DNA from: Ilumatobacter coccineus YM16-304
GTDB taxonomy: Bacteria; Actinomycetota; Acidimicrobiia; Acidimicrobiales; Ilumatobacteraceae
Length of the DNA stretch: 64,000 nucleotides
Assembly: GCF_000348785.1 (NCBI RefSeq)
Contig: NC_020520.1
Location: 3,162,001 to 3,226,000 of the forward strand
Reading direction: 5' to 3'
Shown here: piece by piece, positions 34,070 through 41,009 of the stretch
Numbering within the stretch: position 1 is the stretch's first letter
How the letters are laid out: every line of letters starts with the position of its first letter
Position numbers and translations under genes: made by a program
Notes under the pieces: generated by a model
The model's input: the letters and a program-made list of their open reading frames with translations, nothing else
What the model was told of the DNA's origin: nothing
The model's database searches: none

Positions 34070-34106
34070 ACCTGGTTATTTCCATCCCGGATGGAAATAA
34101 CCAGGT
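34070..34106. repeat. 37-bp perfect palindrome, copy 1
   Basis: The left arm ACCTGGTTATTTCCATCC (34070-34087), one central C and the fully complementary right arm (34089-34106) form an 18-bp perfect inverted repeat. It lies 2 bp after the birA stop and 54 bp upstream of the LCP -10. An identical copy with one more pair is at 58362-58400. The AT-rich stem is unlike the surrounding DNA. It may act as the birA terminator. Confidence 0.85.
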
Positions 34107-34108
34107 GG

Positions 34109-34933
34109 TCAGGTTCGGCGGGCGTGGATCACGTCGCCGACGTCGAACGTCTCGATGCTGCCGTCGACGTCAAGCAGCAGGCGTCCGTCGTCGTCGACGT
34201 CGACCGCGGTACCGCTCACCGTCCGGTCACCGGGCAACTCCATCCGCACGGTCTCGCCGAGCGTCAACAGTCGCTGGCGGTAGCGAGCGGCGACGTGTTG
34301 CCGTCCGTCGGGATGCCGGAGCATCTCGTCGACGTGCCCGAGCATCGAGCGCAGCAGGTCGGCAGGTCGGATGTCGAGTCCGAGGTCGCGGGCGATGCAC
34401 CCGCCGGTCTCCGGCGACCACGACACGTTGATGCCGATACCGACCACCGTCGAACCGTTCACCGAGCTCCGCTGGGCCAGCATCCCGGCGAGCTTCCGGT
34501 CGTCGAGCAGCAGGTCGTTCGGCCACTTCAGACCGAGTCGCTCGGGCATCGTCGTGCCGGCGAGCGTCTCGATCGCGTCGACCGCAGCGAGCGACACGAC
34601 CGTCATGAACGGGTAGGTCGTGTCCGGGACCGCGGCGAAGAGCAGCGAGGTCAGCAGGTTGACACCAGGCGGGGCCTCCCACCGTCGGTCGAGTCGTCCG
34701 CGCCCGGCGGTCTGGTGGTCGGCAGCGAGCACGGTGCGGTCGCCCGCTTCACCGCGGTCGGCCGCTGCGAGCAGATCGGTGTTGGTGCTCCCCGTTTCGG
34801 CGACGTGTCGAACCGACCACCCAGCCGGCCAGCCGGTGGTCGACCAGGCATCGGCGTGAGGCGGTTGCCCGGGTGCTTCGTTCGGGGCTTTTTCGGTCGA
34901 AGGTTCCCCTGGAATGCCGTGATCTGAGTCCAC
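34109..34933 (-). CDS. birA: biotin--[acetyl-CoA-carboxylase] ligase
   Basis: A 274-residue enzyme that activates biotin with ATP and attaches it to the lysine of biotin carboxyl carrier domains. Motifs are ETGSTNTDLL (~46-55), the biotinyl-AMP loop QTAGRGRLDRRW (~77-88) and KWPNDLLLDDRKLAGML (~140). The C-terminal SH3-like domain ends in VDDDGRLLLDVDGSIETFDVGDV. No N-terminal HTH is present, so it is the non-regulatory type. The start GTG 34933 is chosen because it leaves a 19-bp gap to the divergent biotin carboxylase gene, its substrate. Longer starts would run into that gene. Confidence 0.92.
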   Translation of the reverse strand: MDSDHGIPGEPSTEKAPNEAPGQPPHADAWSTTGWPAGWSVRHVAETGSTNTDLLAAADRGEAGDRTVLAADHQTAGRGRLDRRWEAPPGVNLLTSLLFAAVPDTTYPFMTVVSLAAVDAIETLAGTTMPERLGLKWPNDLLLDDRKLAGMLAQRSSVNGSTVVGIGINVSWSPETGGCIARDLGLDIRPADLLRSMLGHVDEMLRHPDGRQHVAARYRQRLLTLGETVRMELPGDRTVSGTAVDVDDDGRLLLDVDGSIETFDVGDVIHARRT

Positions 34934-34952
34934 GCCACCTACATTTGCATCC
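34934..34952. promoter_or_regulatory. 19-bp bidirectional leaderless promoter of birA and the biotin carboxylase gene
   Basis: On the plus strand TACATT (34940-34945) is followed by 7 bases and GTG 34953. On the minus strand AAATGT (34946-34941) is followed by 7 bases and GTG 34933. The two -10 elements share five base pairs, so polymerase cannot occupy both at once. Confidence 0.5.
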
Positions 34953-36728
34953 GTGCTGAAGAAGATCCTGATCGCCAACCGAGGCGAAATCGCTGTCCGT
35001 GTCATCCGCGCTGCCCGAGAGATGGGCATCTCGACGGTGGCGGTCTACTCCGAACTCGATCGCGACGCGCTTCACGTGCGACTCGCCGACGAGGCGTTCG
35101 CCCTCGGCGGACAGACTGCAGCCGAGAGCTACATCGACAGCGACAAGCTGCTCGATGCGATCCGCACCAGCGGCGCCGACGGCGTGCACCCCGGCTACGG
35201 CTTCTTCAGTGAGAACGCCGACTTCGCCCGAGCCGTTGCCGAGATGGGCGTCGAGTTCATCGGCCCGCCGCCCGAAGCGATGGACGAGATGTCCGACAAG
35301 GTCTCGAGTCGCCAGGCCGCGATCCGCGGTGGCGCTCCGATCGTTCCGGGCACCACCGAGTTCGCTCAGGGGCCCGACGAGATCCGTGCGTTCGGCAACG
35401 AGCACGGTTGGCCGGCAGTCATCAAGGCGGCCTTCGGCGGCGGCGGTCGCGGCATGAAGGTCGTGCACGGTCCCGACGAGGTCGACGATGCGTGGGCGTC
35501 GGCACAGCGTGAGGCCAAGAGCTTCTTCGGTCGCGACGAGGTGTACGTCGAGCGCTACCTGACGTGGCCGCGCCACGTCGAGATCCAGTTGGTCGGCGAC
35601 AAGCAGGGCAACTGCGTCTGGATCTCCAGCCGTGACTGCTCGGCGCAGCGTCGCCACCAGAAGCTCATCGAAGAGGCGCCGGCCCCGATGCTCCCCGAGG
35701 GCGTCGAAGCCGCCATGGGTGAAGCTGCGGTCAAGGCCGCCAAGGCCGTCGGCTACTACGGCGCCGGCACCGTCGAGTTCATCTACCAGGACGGCGAGTT
35801 CTTCTTCCTCGAGATGAACACCCGCCTGCAGGTCGAGCACCCGGTGAGCGAGATGATCACCGACATCGACCTCGTCGAGTGGCAGATCCGTGTCGCGGCC
35901 GGCGAAGAGCTCCCGATGACGCAGGCCGAGGTCGACGCATGTCGTCGGGGCCACTCGATCGAGGTGCGCATCAACGCCGAAGATCCGACCGACGGCAAGT
36001 TCCTGCCCGCCCCCGGCCCGATCTCGAAGGTCGTCCCGCCGGACGGCTTCGGCGTTCGTTGGGACACCGGTTACCTGTCGGGCGACGAGATCAGCCAGTT
36101 CTACGACAACCTGGTCGGCAAGCTGGTCGTGTGGGGACGCACTCGGGAGGTGGCGATCGCCCGCACGATCCGTGCCCTCGAAGAGCTCGTCGTCGAAGGT
36201 GTGGCGACCACGATTCCGGCCGATCTCGAGATCTTGAAGCACCCCGACTTCGCGGCGATGACGTTCTCGACGAAGTGGGTCGAGGAGAAGCTCGACCTGA
36301 GTGGCATCTCGGTCGGCCCGCCGCCGGCACCGAGTTCGGACGACGACGATGCTCCCGAGCTGGTGCGTCGCAACACCACGGTCGAGGTCAACGGCAAGCG
36401 GTTCGACGTGTCGATGTGGGTTCCCGATCAGCCGGTGGTTGCCGCAGGTGCGGCACCGGCGAAGAAGCGTGAGAAGCGTGCTGCCTCGGGCGGCGGCGGC
36501 AGCGCTGGTTCGGGCAAGATCGAAGCGCCCATGCAGGGCACCATCGTCAAGCTGCTCGTCGAAGAGGGCGCAACGGTCGAGGCCGGTGCCGGCCTCGTCG
36601 TGCTCGAAGCGATGAAGATGGAGAACCAGATCAACGCCGACATCGCCGGCACGGTGAAGGAGATCAAGGTCGCCGCTGGCGACACGGTCGGCGGTGGCGA
36701 CATCCTCGCCGTCATCGAACCGGCCTGA
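34953..36728 (+). CDS. acyl-CoA carboxylase alpha subunit (biotin carboxylase + BCCP)
   Basis: A 591-residue biotin-dependent subunit of acetyl-/propionyl-CoA carboxylase that carboxylates its own biotin using ATP and bicarbonate. The biotin carboxylase domain starts KKILIANRGEIAVRVIRAARE. It has the Gly-rich ATP loop AAFGGGGRGMKVV (~161), the EMNTRLQVEHPVSE motif (~287) with catalytic Glu and Arg, and the C-terminal cap to ~450. A Gly/Ser-rich linker (~510) leads to a biotinyl domain with EAMKMEN (552-558, biotinylated Lys555). The carboxyltransferase beta subunit is not in the window. Divergence from birA ties the ligase to its substrate. Methylmalonyl-CoA mutase at 60839-62413 would fit a propionyl-CoA pathway (inference). 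Confidence 0.95.
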   Translation: MLKKILIANRGEIAVRVIRAAREMGISTVAVYSELDRDALHVRLADEAFALGGQTAAESYIDSDKLLDAIRTSGADGVHPGYGFFSENADFARAVAEMGVEFIGPPPEAMDEMSDKVSSRQAAIRGGAPIVPGTTEFAQGPDEIRAFGNEHGWPAVIKAAFGGGGRGMKVVHGPDEVDDAWASAQREAKSFFGRDEVYVERYLTWPRHVEIQLVGDKQGNCVWISSRDCSAQRRHQKLIEEAPAPMLPEGVEAAMGEAAVKAAKAVGYYGAGTVEFIYQDGEFFFLEMNTRLQVEHPVSEMITDIDLVEWQIRVAAGEELPMTQAEVDACRRGHSIEVRINAEDPTDGKFLPAPGPISKVVPPDGFGVRWDTGYLSGDEISQFYDNLVGKLVVWGRTREVAIARTIRALEELVVEGVATTIPADLEILKHPDFAAMTFSTKWVEEKLDLSGISVGPPPAPSSDDDDAPELVRRNTTVEVNGKRFDVSMWVPDQPVVAAGAAPAKKREKRAASGGGGSAGSGKIEAPMQGTIVKLLVEEGATVEAGAGLVVLEAMKMENQINADIAGTVKEIKVAAGDTVGGGDILAVIEPA

Positions 36729-37021: not shown

Positions 37022-37486
37022 ATGTACGTGTTGGATGACATCAATCGCGATCTCCTCGACCTCTTGCAGACCGACGGGCGGATGTCGTTCAAGGAACTCG
37101 GTGACCGCATCGGCCTGACGGCGCCGGCGGTCGCGGAACGAGTCCGCAAGCTCGAAGACGCCGGGGTCATCAAGGGGTATCGAGCGGTCGTCGACTACGA
37201 GGCGCTCGGTTTCCCGATCCTCAGCATCGTGCGCGTGAAGGCACCGATCGCCGGTCGCGCTGTCGACGAGAAGATCGCCGCGCTGCCGAACGTGATCGAA
37301 GCGAACCGTGTGACCGGCTCCGACTCGCACGTGATCCGAGCTCGCCTGCGAACGACGCGCGACATCGAGGATCTGCTCGCCGATGTGTGGGAGGACGGCG
37401 AGACCATCACGAACCTGGTCACGAGTTCCCCGGTCCCACGGCGGCCGATGAACCTCAAGGCGACGAACGCCGGCCGGGCGTCGTGA
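37022..37486 (+). CDS. Lrp/AsnC family transcriptional regulator
   Basis: A 154-residue DNA-binding protein. The N-terminal winged helix-turn-helix spans LDDINRDLLDLLQTDGRMSF to VAERVRKLEDAGVIKGYRAVV (~4-58), the classic Lrp/AsnC region. The C-terminal RAM ligand domain runs from ~65 to 140 and includes LPNVIEANRVTGSDSHVIRAR. Members bind amino acids and regulate amino-acid metabolism as octamers. The effector here is unknown, though lysine, serine and glycine genes (dapD, thrH-like, ACT protein) occur elsewhere in the window. It is divergent from the 49-residue ORF, which it might control. It converges on the HTH gene with 12 bp between stops. Confidence 0.92.
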   Translation: MYVLDDINRDLLDLLQTDGRMSFKELGDRIGLTAPAVAERVRKLEDAGVIKGYRAVVDYEALGFPILSIVRVKAPIAGRAVDEKIAALPNVIEANRVTGSDSHVIRARLRTTRDIEDLLADVWEDGETITNLVTSSPVPRRPMNLKATNAGRAS

Positions 37487-37498
37487 GCCGGCGACTGC

Positions 37499-37864
37499 TC
37501 ACCATGCGGTGAGCGAACCCGTCGTTGCCGCATCGTCGGCATCTCGCTCGCGTCGGAACTGCGCGACGACCGCTCGACGTTCCGCCTCGACCTCGGACTG
37601 CTCGGTCGCCGGCAAGCTCGGCGGCAAGAGTGCGCCCACGGGCGCCACGCCGCCGAACCGCTTGCGCACCGCTTGGCGGCTCCGGCCCAACAGTCGGCCG
37701 ATCCGAGCCCAGTCTCGGCCGCTGCGGCGTGCGCGCAGCACCGCCGAGCGTTCGAGCCACGGCAGATAGTCGTCCTGCAGTATCCGCAGGCACGCCAACG
37801 ACATCGCGATGTCGTCGCCCAGCACGCCGTCGATCAGCCACCGCACCTCACGTTCCACGCTCAT
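37499..37864 (-). CDS. small HTH-containing protein
   Basis: 121 residues from ATG 37864; the frame continues upstream to 37945 into a region with poor coding signal. An N-terminal helical part (EVRWLIDGVLGDDIAMSLACLRILQDDYLPWLER) precedes a probable helix-turn-helix, SGRDWARIGRLLGRSRQAVRKRF (~52-75; WARIG...GRSRQAVRKRF is the recognition-helix pattern). The tail is Arg/Glu/Ala-rich. It is a plausible DNA-binding protein of an actinobacterial family without assigned function. CATGGT 6 bases before ATG 37864 is a weak leaderless element. Upstream of it begins the long repeat-rich non-coding tract. Confidence 0.7.
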   Translation of the reverse strand: MSVEREVRWLIDGVLGDDIAMSLACLRILQDDYLPWLERSAVLRARRSGRDWARIGRLLGRSRQAVRKRFGGVAPVGALLPPSLPATEQSEVEAERRAVVAQFRRERDADDAATTGSLTAW

Positions 37865-38076
37865 ACGCCCACCATGCCAGCACCCTGCTTCAGAGTTCCG
37901 GTCCCCCTCGCCCCCCCCACTCCCCCACGACCGGGTCGCGTGCACGGCCTCAGGTCTGCCCAGGTCCTTTGACCGGCCGAATCATTCGTCTCCCCGAATC
38001 GCTCGTCTCCCCGAGTGCCACGTGTCCCGGACCGGTCGGCGATCAACGCTCCCCGCCGCAACCGGTCGTTCACCAA

Positions 38077-38394
38077 CGTCGACTCACGGGCCACACCCGC
38101 GCCGACCGTCACGATGACGCGAGCAACGGGGTTCACACCGCGCTCTCGAGTGCGATGCCTGCCACACCGTCTCGGACCCGAACGTCCGGCAGTCGACGAG
38201 CCCGAGCCTCCCAGGCGTCCAGGTGTGTGTCCAGGCGTCGACTCACGGGCCACACCCGCGCCGACCGTCACGATGACGCGAGCAACGCGGCTCGCACTGC
38301 GCTCTCGAGCGCGATGCCTGCCACACCGTCTCGGACCCGAACGGTTCGGGAGTCGATGAGCCCGAGCCGCCCGGGCGCTCAGTTGTGCAGGCGT
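38077..38394. repeat. 159-bp tandem duplication, two copies
   Basis: Copy 1 begins at 38077 and copy 2 at 38236, both with CGTCGACTCACGGGCCACAC. They stay nearly identical for the first ~55 bp, then diverge slightly and share the ACACCGTCTCGGACCCGAAC block and a GAGCCCGAGCC end. The period of 159 is divisible by three, but the translated frames carry no recognised domain. Confidence 0.8.
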
Positions 38395-38440
38395 TCAGGC
38401 GTCCAGTTGCATGCTGTCGGATGCATGGTGTCGAATTGCG

Positions 38441-38485
38441 GTGTCGGATGTCCAGGTGTCCGACGTGCAGGTGTCGGACGTCCGG
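38441..38485. repeat. 15-bp tandem repeats, three units
   Basis: Units start at 38441, 38456 and 38471 and fit GTGTCSGAYGTSCRG. A shorter related unit precedes them at about 38429. Confidence 0.65.
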
Positions 38486-38565
38486 GTGTTTGGTTCCGAC
38501 CATGGAACAGCGGCCGCGGTGCCGGCATACGTCGAAGTGCGCTGGGGACGGCCCCTCGCCAGCGT

Positions 38566-38602
38566 GACAACCTGGGTTGCGCCCCTGACAACCCAGGTTG
38601 TC
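38566..38602. repeat. GACAACC palindrome pair forming a 14-bp stem
   Basis: GACAACCTGGGTTG (38566-38579) and its exact complement CAACCCAGGTTGTC (38589-38602) are separated by nine bases. The second half, 38587-38602, is itself the palindrome GACAACC-CA-GGTTGTC. The motif recurs twice at 39118-39154. Confidence 0.75.
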
Positions 38603-38680
38603 GCTCCACCGAGTGCGCGCCCCACGCACCCCACGGCCACGCGAGCTGTCATCACTGCCGAAAGGGCGCCGGGATCGGCC

Positions 38681-38716
38681 CGGTCATCACGGTCATCACG
38701 GTCATCTCGGTCATCT
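38681..38716. repeat. 9-bp tandem repeats, four units
   Basis: CGGTCATCA occurs twice and CGGTCATCT twice without a gap, a simple-sequence array prone to slippage. Confidence 0.75.
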
Positions 38717-39117
38717 CGGCTCGCCTCAGCACAGGCCGGGCCGGACCAGCTCAAACCGGGTCGGCTCAGCACAGACCGGGTCCGATCGGGCGGGTTCACG
38801 TCCGACCGGTTTCGGCCTAGCTCCGGTCGACTCAGCTCAGCTCTGGTCGGCACGACTCAGCTCCCACGGAGGGGCCCGGACCGGGACGACATGCGTCGGC
38901 TCAGCCAGCGCGACGCCGGACAGCCCGGGTGAGAGTGAAGCCGGACGGCCCTGGCGGCTCCGGGCCGCACGGCTCGGCGCGGGTCGGCTCAGAGGGTCGA
39001 TTCGACTCCGGTCCAGCCGGCACCGCTCAGGGCGGAGTGGCCGGGGCGGAGCGGGCTCGGCTCGGCGCGGGCGGTGGTCGGCAGCTTGGTGAGCTGCGGA
39101 TGCGATTGCCGGTCGTT

Positions 39118-39154
39118 GACAACCTGGGTTGTCGGGTTGACAACCTGGGTTGTC
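39118..39154. repeat. two direct copies of the palindrome GACAACC-TG-GGTTGTC
   Basis: Identical 16-bp palindromes at 39118-39133 and 39139-39154, 21 bp apart (two helical turns). Such spacing is typical of paired operator sites. Confidence 0.75.
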
Positions 39155-39226
39155 ACGTCCGTGAACGCGAGCCCCAGACACTTGCCGTGCGACCGTCTGC
39201 AGCGCTCCGCACCACTTTTGCCGCGG

Positions 39227-39372
39227 CGCTCGACATCACGGCGCTCGACATCATGGCCGCTCGACGCCACAGCTGCTCGGCACCACTGCCGCTCGATGCC
39301 ACAGCCGCTCGGCATCATGGCCGCTCGACATCACGGCGCTCGACGCCACAGCCGCTCGACGCAACTGCCGCC
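39227..39372. repeat. 15-16-bp minisatellite, about nine degenerate units
   Basis: Units begin with CGCTCG and read CGCTCGACATCACGG or CGCTCGACGCCACAGC with variants. The units differ by a few bases and one base in length, so no reading frame is kept through the array. Confidence 0.65.
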
Positions 39373-39620
39373 TGCGATCGCGGCGACGAATGACGTGCCG
39401 AAGCGATGGTGGTCGGTGGTCGGCGGTCAACCGCCTCACCAGGTTTTCGCCAGGTCCTCGCGAGACCAGGGCCGTCCGCTCCAGCTCGATGCGAGGTCGA
39501 TGCCAGGACGAGGCAAGTGGGCCAGTGTTGGGCTGGTCTCACCGGCAGGTCGGTGGACCCGGTGGACCGGTGAACCCGATGGACCGGTGGACCGGTGACC
39601 CGACGGTGGCTAGTCGGTGG

Positions 39621-41009
39621 CTATTCGGCGGCTTCGGCGAGGGCTTCGCTGAGCGCCGGGTGAACGAGGATCGACTCGACGATGTCGGTCACGGTGAGCC
39701 CAGCGGTGACAGCGACGGCGATGACCGAGATCAACTCGGCTGCATGCCGCCCCACGATCGACCCCCCGAGGATCACGCCGGTCGCCGGATCGGAGATGAT
39801 CTTGACGAACCCGCGGGTGTCGTTGTTGATCATCGCTTTGGCCGTGGCCGAGAACGGCACCTTCGTGACCCGGATCTTCCGACCCGACGCAAACGCCTCC
39901 GCCTCGGCGAGGCCGACGTCGGCGATCTCGGGTTCGGTGAAGATCGCCGATGCCGCCTTGTCGTAGTCGAGGTGACGGTGGCTGCGCGTGTGCAGGCCCA
40001 TGACGTGTTCGGCCACCTTGCGCCCCTGGATCGAGGCGACCGACGACAGCGGCAACTTGCCCGAGATGTCACCAGCCGCGTAGATGTGCGGGACGTTGGT
40101 GACGCAGTGATGGTTGATGTCGACGTAGCCCCAGCGGTTCACCTCGACACCTGCTCGGTCGAGACCGATGTCGGCGGTGTTGGGAACCGAACCGATGGCC
40201 AGCACCGCATGCGACGACGTGACCGAACGACCGTCGTCGCAGCGGACGATGACCTGGCTGCCGTCGGGGTCGGGGTTGCCGTCGGCATCGATGCGCTCGA
40301 TCGCCTCGGCACGAGCCCCCATCAGGAGCTTGACACCGCGGTCCATGAACTCCTGCTCGAGCACCGCCGCGACCTCTGGGTCCTTGCCCGGAAGCACCTG
40401 CTGTCGGCTGACGACCAGGGTGACCTTGGCGCCGAACGACGAGAACATGTGGACGAACTCCACACCGGTCACACCCGACCCGACCACGGTGACGCTGTCG
40501 GGGAAGACCGTCGGCGGGTAGCAGTCGCGGGTGGTCAGGATGCGTTCGCCGTCGGGATGGCACCAGTCGGGGATGCGCGGTTGCGATCCGGTCGACACGA
40601 GCGCCGAGTCGAACTCGATCGTCTCGGTGCCCTCTGCGGTGGTGACCTCGACCGAGTTGGCGCTGGTGAACGCTCCGGTCCCACGGATGAGACGGACGTT
40701 CTGGCTCTCCAACAACTGCGTCGTGTTGTCACGCATGTTGGCCTTGATCTGGTCGATCCGGCCGGTGAGCCCGCCGGTGTCGATCACGGGATCTTCCTGC
40801 TCCAGGCCCATTCCCTGCGAGCGCCGCATGAAGCTCATCGCTCCGCCGGTGGCGATCATCGACTTCGACGGGATGCAGTCCCACAGGTGCGCAGCACCAC
40901 CGATCACGTCACGCTCGATCACGGTCACCTCGGCACCGAGTCGGGCTGCGTACGTCGCCGCGACATTGCCTGCCGGGCCTCCACCGATGATCACAAAGCG
41001 TTCTGGCAC
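39621..41009 (-). CDS. lpdA: LpdA-type NAD(P)H quinone reductase
   Basis: A 462-residue FAD flavoprotein of the pyridine nucleotide-disulfide oxidoreductase family. It has the FAD motif VIIGGGPAGNVAA near the N-terminus, an NAD(P) site at VVGSGVTGVEFVHMFSSFG (~175) and a dimerisation domain from ~340. The active-site loop reads GGAAHLWDCIPSK: the first Cys of the usual CxxxxC pair is missing. Mycobacterial LpdA (Rv3303c) also lacks a functional Cys pair and reduces quinones rather than dihydrolipoamide. ATG 41018 gives three more residues, but GTG 41009 sits 7 bases after a TAGCAT hexamer and is preferred. The E2 enzyme partners of a true Lpd are absent. Confidence 0.88.
   Translation of the reverse strand: MPERFVIIGGGPAGNVAATYAARLGAEVTVIERDVIGGAAHLWDCIPSKSMIATGGAMSFMRRSQGMGLEQEDPVIDTGGLTGRIDQIKANMRDNTTQLLESQNVRLIRGTGAFTSANSVEVTTAEGTETIEFDSALVSTGSQPRIPDWCHPDGERILTTRDCYPPTVFPDSVTVVGSGVTGVEFVHMFSSFGAKVTLVVSRQQVLPGKDPEVAAVLEQEFMDRGVKLLMGARAEAIERIDADGNPDPDGSQVIVRCDDGRSVTSSHAVLAIGSVPNTADIGLDRAGVEVNRWGYVDINHHCVTNVPHIYAAGDISGKLPLSSVASIQGRKVAEHVMGLHTRSHRHLDYDKAASAIFTEPEIADVGLAEAEAFASGRKIRVTKVPFSATAKAMINNDTRGFVKIISDPATGVILGGSIVGRHAAELISVIAVAVTAGLTVTDIVESILVHPALSEALAEAAE

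Follow-up and report, generated by a model that had tools for sequence, protein, structure and literature searches.

In mycobacteria, birA is divergent from an acyl-CoA carboxylase gene, and the partner there is a carboxyltransferase subunit, not a biotin acceptor. Promoters with a shared symmetrical -10 element that act in both directions were reportedly described by Warman et al. in 2021. At bidirectional promoters one symmetrical -10 serves both strands, and the two transcription start sites (TSSs) are most often spaced by 18 bp, according to the excerpted text of a later study (Warman et al., 2026; PMC12825309). For five of five E. coli promoters, the same excerpts report basal firing too low for steric competition, which set in only after one direction had been strengthened or strongly activated (Warman et al., 2026; PMC12825309). 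In Mycobacterium tuberculosis, most primary TSSs have a TAnnnT motif and no -35 consensus, and the divergent pair prpD/Rv1129c is leaderless in both directions (Cortes et al., 2013; PMC3898074, in the excerpts used here). Bidirectional promoters are common in start-site maps, and evidence that one of them is kept by selection is valuable. Among the papers listed by an open-licence library, with subscription journals mostly outside its reach, we found none on the locus presented below or on leaderless bidirectional pairs as a class.

The window, by which we mean the whole stretch of 64,000 nucleotides analysed here, comes from the genome of Ilumatobacter coccineus YM16-304, a single contig of 4,830,181 bases (GC 0.67 in the sampled part). 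It carries a biotin protein ligase gene and a biotin carboxylase-BCCP fusion gene facing away from each other (Table 1). Positions 34931-34933 read CAC, which is GTG on the minus strand, and the plus-strand GTG occupies 34953-34955; both codons are in frame with their genes and were also picked by a coding-score gene finder blind to promoters. Within the gap, the hexamers TACATT and AAATGT, on opposite strands, have five bases in common (34941-34945). The start codons, the 19-bp gap and the five-base overlap had been given in a preliminary description of this DNA and are exact in the sequence; absent from it was the symmetry of the arrangement, with 7 nt between each hexamer and its own GTG. 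At base pairs 34941 and 34945, A-11 and T-7 of one direction are T-7 and A-11 of the other, which is the overlap that characterises bidirectional promoters. We consider it quite probable that this one pseudo-symmetrical -10 drives two leaderless mRNAs, engaged either way by RNA polymerase carrying the housekeeping sigma factor.

The identities proposed for the two genes, a ligase and a biotin acceptor, were confirmed by domain matches. The ligase scored 122.3 bits against TIGR00121 (cut-off 83.1) and matched PF03099 and PF02237 above their curated cut-offs, as a biotin protein ligase should, and all four families in the carboxylase fusion were likewise above cut-off. No HTH family matched the ligase at E 0.001, the domain matches starting at residue 49 (Pfam) or 41 (TIGR00121), so that the protein looks like a monofunctional biotin protein ligase; autoregulation by a bifunctional, BirA-type repressor was rejected since the N-terminal HTH is missing. 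The carboxylase fusion had also been called the substrate of the ligase. It does have a biotin carrier domain, and yet the wording is too narrow, as the genome encodes three carrier domains (window/L238, L241 and L242) whose MKM motif is of biotinyl type, next to three of lipoyl type. Because PF03099 has a single match in the whole genome, namely the window ligase, this enzyme should probably serve proteins beyond its divergent partner.

A sigma70 scan requiring a -35 element found none between 33500 and 36500 (0.2 expected). An AGGTGG ending one base before GTG 34933 was rejected as a Shine-Dalgarno sequence for the ligase, being too near for the usual spacing, and no purine-rich run was seen by eye before GTG 34953. 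At 34082-34108, after the ligase stop and before the minus-strand gene that follows, we noticed by eye an inverted repeat, TTATTTCCATC...GATGGAAATAA (about 34075-34101), which is perhaps the terminator of the ligase transcript. Further along the window, 37700-39600 holds many overlapping ORFs and repeated-looking runs with few convincing genes, bordered by an AsnC-type regulator (37022-37486) and a flavoprotein-like ORF at 39621.

Table 1. Features of the window locus, candidate ATC-start ligase genes in relatives, and other divergent pairs of the host genome.
Feature	Location	Strand	Evidence or remark
Biotin protein ligase gene, monofunctional in appearance, 274 aa, start GTG 34933	window 34109..34933	-	TIGR00121, PF03099, PF02237
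Biotin carboxylase-BCCP fusion gene, 591 aa, start GTG 34953	window 34953..36728	+	PF00289, PF02786, PF02785, PF00364; EAMKM biotin site
Putative shared promoter core (gap between start codons, 19 bp)	window 34934..34952	.	sequence; gap size kept in relatives
Putative carboxylase-direction -10, TACATT, full TAnnnT	window 34940..34945	+	sequence; position of the genome-wide leaderless signal
Putative ligase-direction -10, AAATGT, A-11 and T-7 present, T-12 absent	window 34941..34946	-	sequence; nAnnnT kept in 87/87
Putative TG of extended -10 (TGC-AAATGT), ligase direction	window 34948..34949	-	conservation; TGn enrichment genome-wide
Predicted carboxylase mRNA start	window 34952..34953	+	from -10 spacing
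Predicted ligase mRNA start	window 34933..34934	-	from -10 spacing
Candidate ATC-start ligase gene	L045:1501-2172	-	
Candidate ATC-start ligase gene	L047:1501-2181	-	
Candidate ATC-start ligase gene	L049:1510-2202	+	
Candidate ATC-start ligase gene	L039:580-1269	-	
Divergent pair	L141 16062-17975/17995-19356		19 bp; TAGGTTA
Divergent pair	L141 9867-11030/11052-12590		21 bp; TACGGTA
Divergent pair	L106 14593-15300/15323-15895		22 bp; centred on palindromic CTATAG
Divergent pair	L133:11327-13344		overlapping -10s; gap within 19-23 bp

The spacing of both hexamers in the window is that expected of leaderless genes, and such genes appear to be a major class in the host genome. In a sample made of the window and 80 further 20-kb stretches of the same genome (1.664 Mb; 1389 genes and 205 divergent pairs, called by a simple coding score that ignores promoters), 84, 63, 45 and 21 of the 994 first genes have a TAnnnT that starts 12, 13, 14 and 15 nt ahead of their start codon, respectively, compared with about 3 genes at each of the other positions. 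When codons close to gene 5' ends are counted, the motif stands 12-14 nt before 185 of 1185 ATG and 101 of 1226 GTG codons, compared with 189 of 46656 (0.4%) for codons other than ATG, GTG and TTG pooled. The carboxylase side of the window shows this signal, TACATT beginning 13 nt before GTG 34953 (range 12-15). The ligase side does not, since AAATGT has no T-12; a TGn-nAnnnT form is found there instead. In the sampled genome, TGn precedes 63 of 214 hexamers lacking T-12 at -12 to -15 (80/1420 in a control zone 21-60 nt upstream) and 3 of 236 full TAnnnT hexamers at the same place (6/131 in the control zone). Because TGn is enriched in this way before hexamers lacking T-12, and TGC precedes AAATGT, the ligase side looks like an extended -10 in which TGn compensates for the missing T-12.

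At a single locus, such a hexamer pair is unremarkable: 2.5% of 19-mers drawn with the composition of the genome, and 6.6% of shuffles of the window gap, carry nAnnnT at -12 to -15 both ways and a full TAnnnT in one direction or both, so that the pair alone is weak evidence and not significant. We compared the locus across the family, using 95 of the 113 family genomes that had a match; these and one other gave 96 loci, or 95 after leaving out L025, in which the carboxylase is missing from the contig. The carboxylase is divergent from the ligase in all 95, and the gap between starts is 19 bp in 66, 18 bp in 14 and 22 bp in 7, i.e. 87/95 with a close gap. All nine loci of the window's own genus, window included, have a gap of 19, and 23 of the 26 sampled genera have at least one locus at 18 or 19. 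The frame rule alone places the ligase start at 16-24 bp in 76/95 (58 at 19, 8 at 18, 7 at 22, 2 at 24 and 1 at 16); the figure of 87 was reached by position, after shifting the carboxylase start of eight g22 loci (g22 being one of the genera) by 12 or 24 nt and using visible starts where the script had stopped short. Two loci at 24 by rule (L214 and L215) also have an ATG at 18, which was used, and L169 includes unread bases. The misfits are eight: seven loci of genus g21, including L165, which was set aside with them at 16 by the frame rule, and L030 (genus g8), where the core and a TG are kept and the ligase frame does not open at that point.

All 87 close-gap family loci have nAnnnT at -12 to -15 both ways (mean 15.0, maximum 26 in 500 rounds of gap shuffling), and 53 carry a full TAnnnT in one direction or both (6.8 on average and 17 at most in the shuffles). 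Across these relatives, conservation lifts the hexamer pair beyond chance, and this evidence is strong; the loci are kin by descent and not independent draws, hence we give no P value for conservation. The claim that the two genes share a 19-bp promoter with overlapping -10 elements is thus supported both by the sequence and by conservation, the keeping of the gap in relatives having been named beforehand as a check, with a positive outcome. On the ligase strand of the 58 gap-19 loci, the commonest bases of the gap are T at position 4 (56 loci), G at 5 (53), A at 8 (48), A at 9 (56), T at 10 (52) and T at 12 (54). Counting all lengths, TG stands at gap positions 4-5 in 67 of 88 close-gap family loci, and in 79 of 88 the ligase -10 has the complete TAnnnT form or else a TGn in front of it.

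A control trial with two proteins of the L141 pairs in 61 family genomes found one in 23, mostly as partial glycosyltransferase matches, and the other in 2; because these gave no baseline, the ligase N-terminus served as internal conservation control. In the 84 loci measured, 19 different distances separate the ligase start from the STN motif, the shortest being 16 aa and the longest 47 aa. Over 66 gap-19 loci, ligase codons 2-15 hold 0.35 bits per site, gap positions 4-13 hold 1.26 and the carboxylase 5' end 1.32.

Genus g21 provides a natural split of the pair. In six of its loci (L014, L017, L019, L020, L024 and L185) the distance from the carboxylase to the ligase start is 66-100 bp, and inspection by eye shows a separate TAGnnT 6-7 nt ahead of that start. 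None of the six has TG at gap positions 4-5, and L165 lacks it too. The absence of the TG where the g21 ligase has a promoter of its own ties the TG to the putative ligase promoter.

Outside the family, we took one locus from each of 65 of the 135 genomes of the order that had a match, most of them high-scoring; L243-L246 were chosen into this set for a stop reported inside the match. An ATG or GTG ligase start lies 15-22 bp from the carboxylase start in 22 of these loci, ATC is found there in 8, and 35/65 do not fit by the script rule. A hexamer is present both ways in 17 of the 30 close-gap loci (shuffles mean 2.7, maximum 7). A contig scan of named relatives (Acidimicrobiales and other actinobacteria) gave 13 loci. 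In eight of them (L068-L075) the 3-kb flank held no divergent match to the carboxylase; L068 does have a carboxylase-like ORF at a distance of one gene, as judged by eye from its translation. The polarity of the putative shared -10 element varies between lineages: of the 30 close-gap loci of other families, 28 have the full TAnnnT directed at the ligase and 1 at the carboxylase, and of the 87 inside the family, 31 have it directed at the carboxylase and 22 at the ligase.

Taken together, RNA polymerase with the housekeeping sigma factor would engage the -10 of the gap in either orientation, using the full TAnnnT in the plus direction and, T-12 being absent, the upstream TGn in the minus direction. 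Because the predicted starts (Table 1) lie at each GTG or one base before it, 18-20 bp apart, both mRNAs would be leaderless and the promoter core would fill the entire gap. T-12, TGn and the quality of the start codons, and not mutual exclusion of polymerases, would most likely determine the ratio between directions, and a single melting site would make ligase and carboxylase follow the same general conditions.

The simplest challenge to such a two-way promoter is that only the carboxylase uses the gap, the ligase having its main promoter within the carboxylase gene and the second hexamer being incidental. The missing T-12 of AAATGT and the separate ligase promoter of g21 suit this view, and the symmetry of a -10 makes a match on the reverse strand partly automatic. 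However, the ligase-side TG goes together with the close gap and is missing from the six g21 loci whose starts are distant, the ligase start codon holds its distance while the N-terminus is rebuilt, and in other families it is the ligase that the full TAnnnT nearly always faces (28/30); we therefore regard exclusive use by the carboxylase as unlikely. We consider it highly improbable that the gap serves chiefly as the operator of some regulator of biotin or fatty-acid genes, its promoter likeness being secondary. The core is indeed conserved about as well as the coding start of the carboxylase (1.26 vs 1.32 bits), but in relatives it becomes CAATCTT or TATGGTT with the -10 positions unchanged, and the ligase has no HTH match. 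Moreover, a regulon sharing the 12-mer core TGCAAATGTAGG was rejected at a stringency of up to one mismatch, at which the genome has a single copy of the core.

The preliminary description had gone further than a shared promoter and proposed that polymerase starting in one direction blocks the other, which would balance the ligase against the acceptor; this is a stronger form of the bidirectional reading that we favour. Two polymerases could not melt both elements at once where the -10s overlap by five bases, and competition was seen in E. coli once one direction had been strengthened (PMC12825309, excerpts). Yet all five E. coli bidirectional promoters were too weak at basal level in the same excerpts (PMC12825309), and because firing of that order is too low for competition, we rate the balancing mechanism as quite improbable. 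The other likely substrates of the ligase also weigh against it, as does the fact that g21 lives with no close overlap of starts.

In nine genomes of five other families (L039, L045, L047, L049, L055, L243, L244, L245 and L321) the ligase frame apparently begins with an ATC that has TATGGT or TATCGT 6 nt in front of it and that would be the +1 of a leaderless mRNA. An in-frame TAG lies two codons upstream in 8/9 (the exception is L039), no ATG, GTG or TTG precedes the DSTN motif in L039, L045, L047 and L049, and in L040 and L043 an ATG takes the place of the ATC. In the other five (L055, L243, L244, L245 and L321) a canonical codon follows slightly downstream. ATC gave no signal as a general leaderless start in genome G127 (2/118, one being the ligase gene) or in the window genome (8/1284). 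The isoleucine may be merely a conserved residue, because in L337 and L340 RIDWDVRR is inside a longer frame that extends upstream to an ATG. These nine relatives may start their ligase with AUC.

A broader reading, which we offer as speculative and rather doubtful, is that the gap acts as a hard-wired ratio setter across much of the order: two leaderless mRNAs would share one -10, with the T-12 strong side toward the carboxylase in the window genus and toward the ligase in other families, and ligase output would be kept low by weak initiation. This reading would include a branch of nine genomes with ligase AUC at the predicted +1, which would mean that a single gene has conserved leaderless translation from a start codon that is neither AUG nor GUG.

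Among the 205 divergent pairs of the host sample there is no sharp mode at 19 bp, so we claim no excess of short gaps. Paired -10s were found in 4/6 short divergent gaps versus 35/199 others (P = 0.013, one of eight comparisons, with promoter-blind starts), and a looser variant accepting any TAnnnT gave P 0.22-0.37; the enrichment is suggestive only. With re-scored starts, 8/9 pairs at 19-26 bp had paired -10s, a biased count as the -10 was part of the start score. The pairs of L141, L106 and L133 with 19-23 bp gaps and overlapping -10s (Table 1) include glycosyltransferase and HTH-cupin genes.

Like the mycobacterial birA gene, the window ligase is divergent from an acyl-CoA carboxylase gene; the partner in the window differs in being a biotin acceptor. 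Here a ligase and one of its likely acceptors share a predicted -10 in a gap that hardly varies across 23 of the 26 genera sampled, and the genus in which the pair is split makes it possible to probe the benefit of promoter sharing. The leaderless genes of M. tuberculosis resemble the predicted ones of the window in having TAnnnT, no -35 consensus and a start codon at or near +1, whereas the ligase side of the window would use TGn in place of T-12; in the excerpts of that study, prpD/Rv1129c is not described as sharing one -10 (PMC3898074). As at the bidirectional promoters of the excerpted E. coli work, one -10 lies on both strands, A-11 of one direction being T-7 of the other, and the predicted starts of the window are about 18 bp apart, the commonest spacing there; in contrast to those promoters, no -35 was found by our scan at the window (PMC12825309). 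A further difference from them is that the start codons of the window lie at the predicted +1, so that the predicted core is the whole intergenic region (PMC12825309, excerpts), leaderless mRNAs being what would let a promoter core occupy it completely. The best reading of the window gap is therefore of a probable new instance of the known bidirectional-promoter kind.
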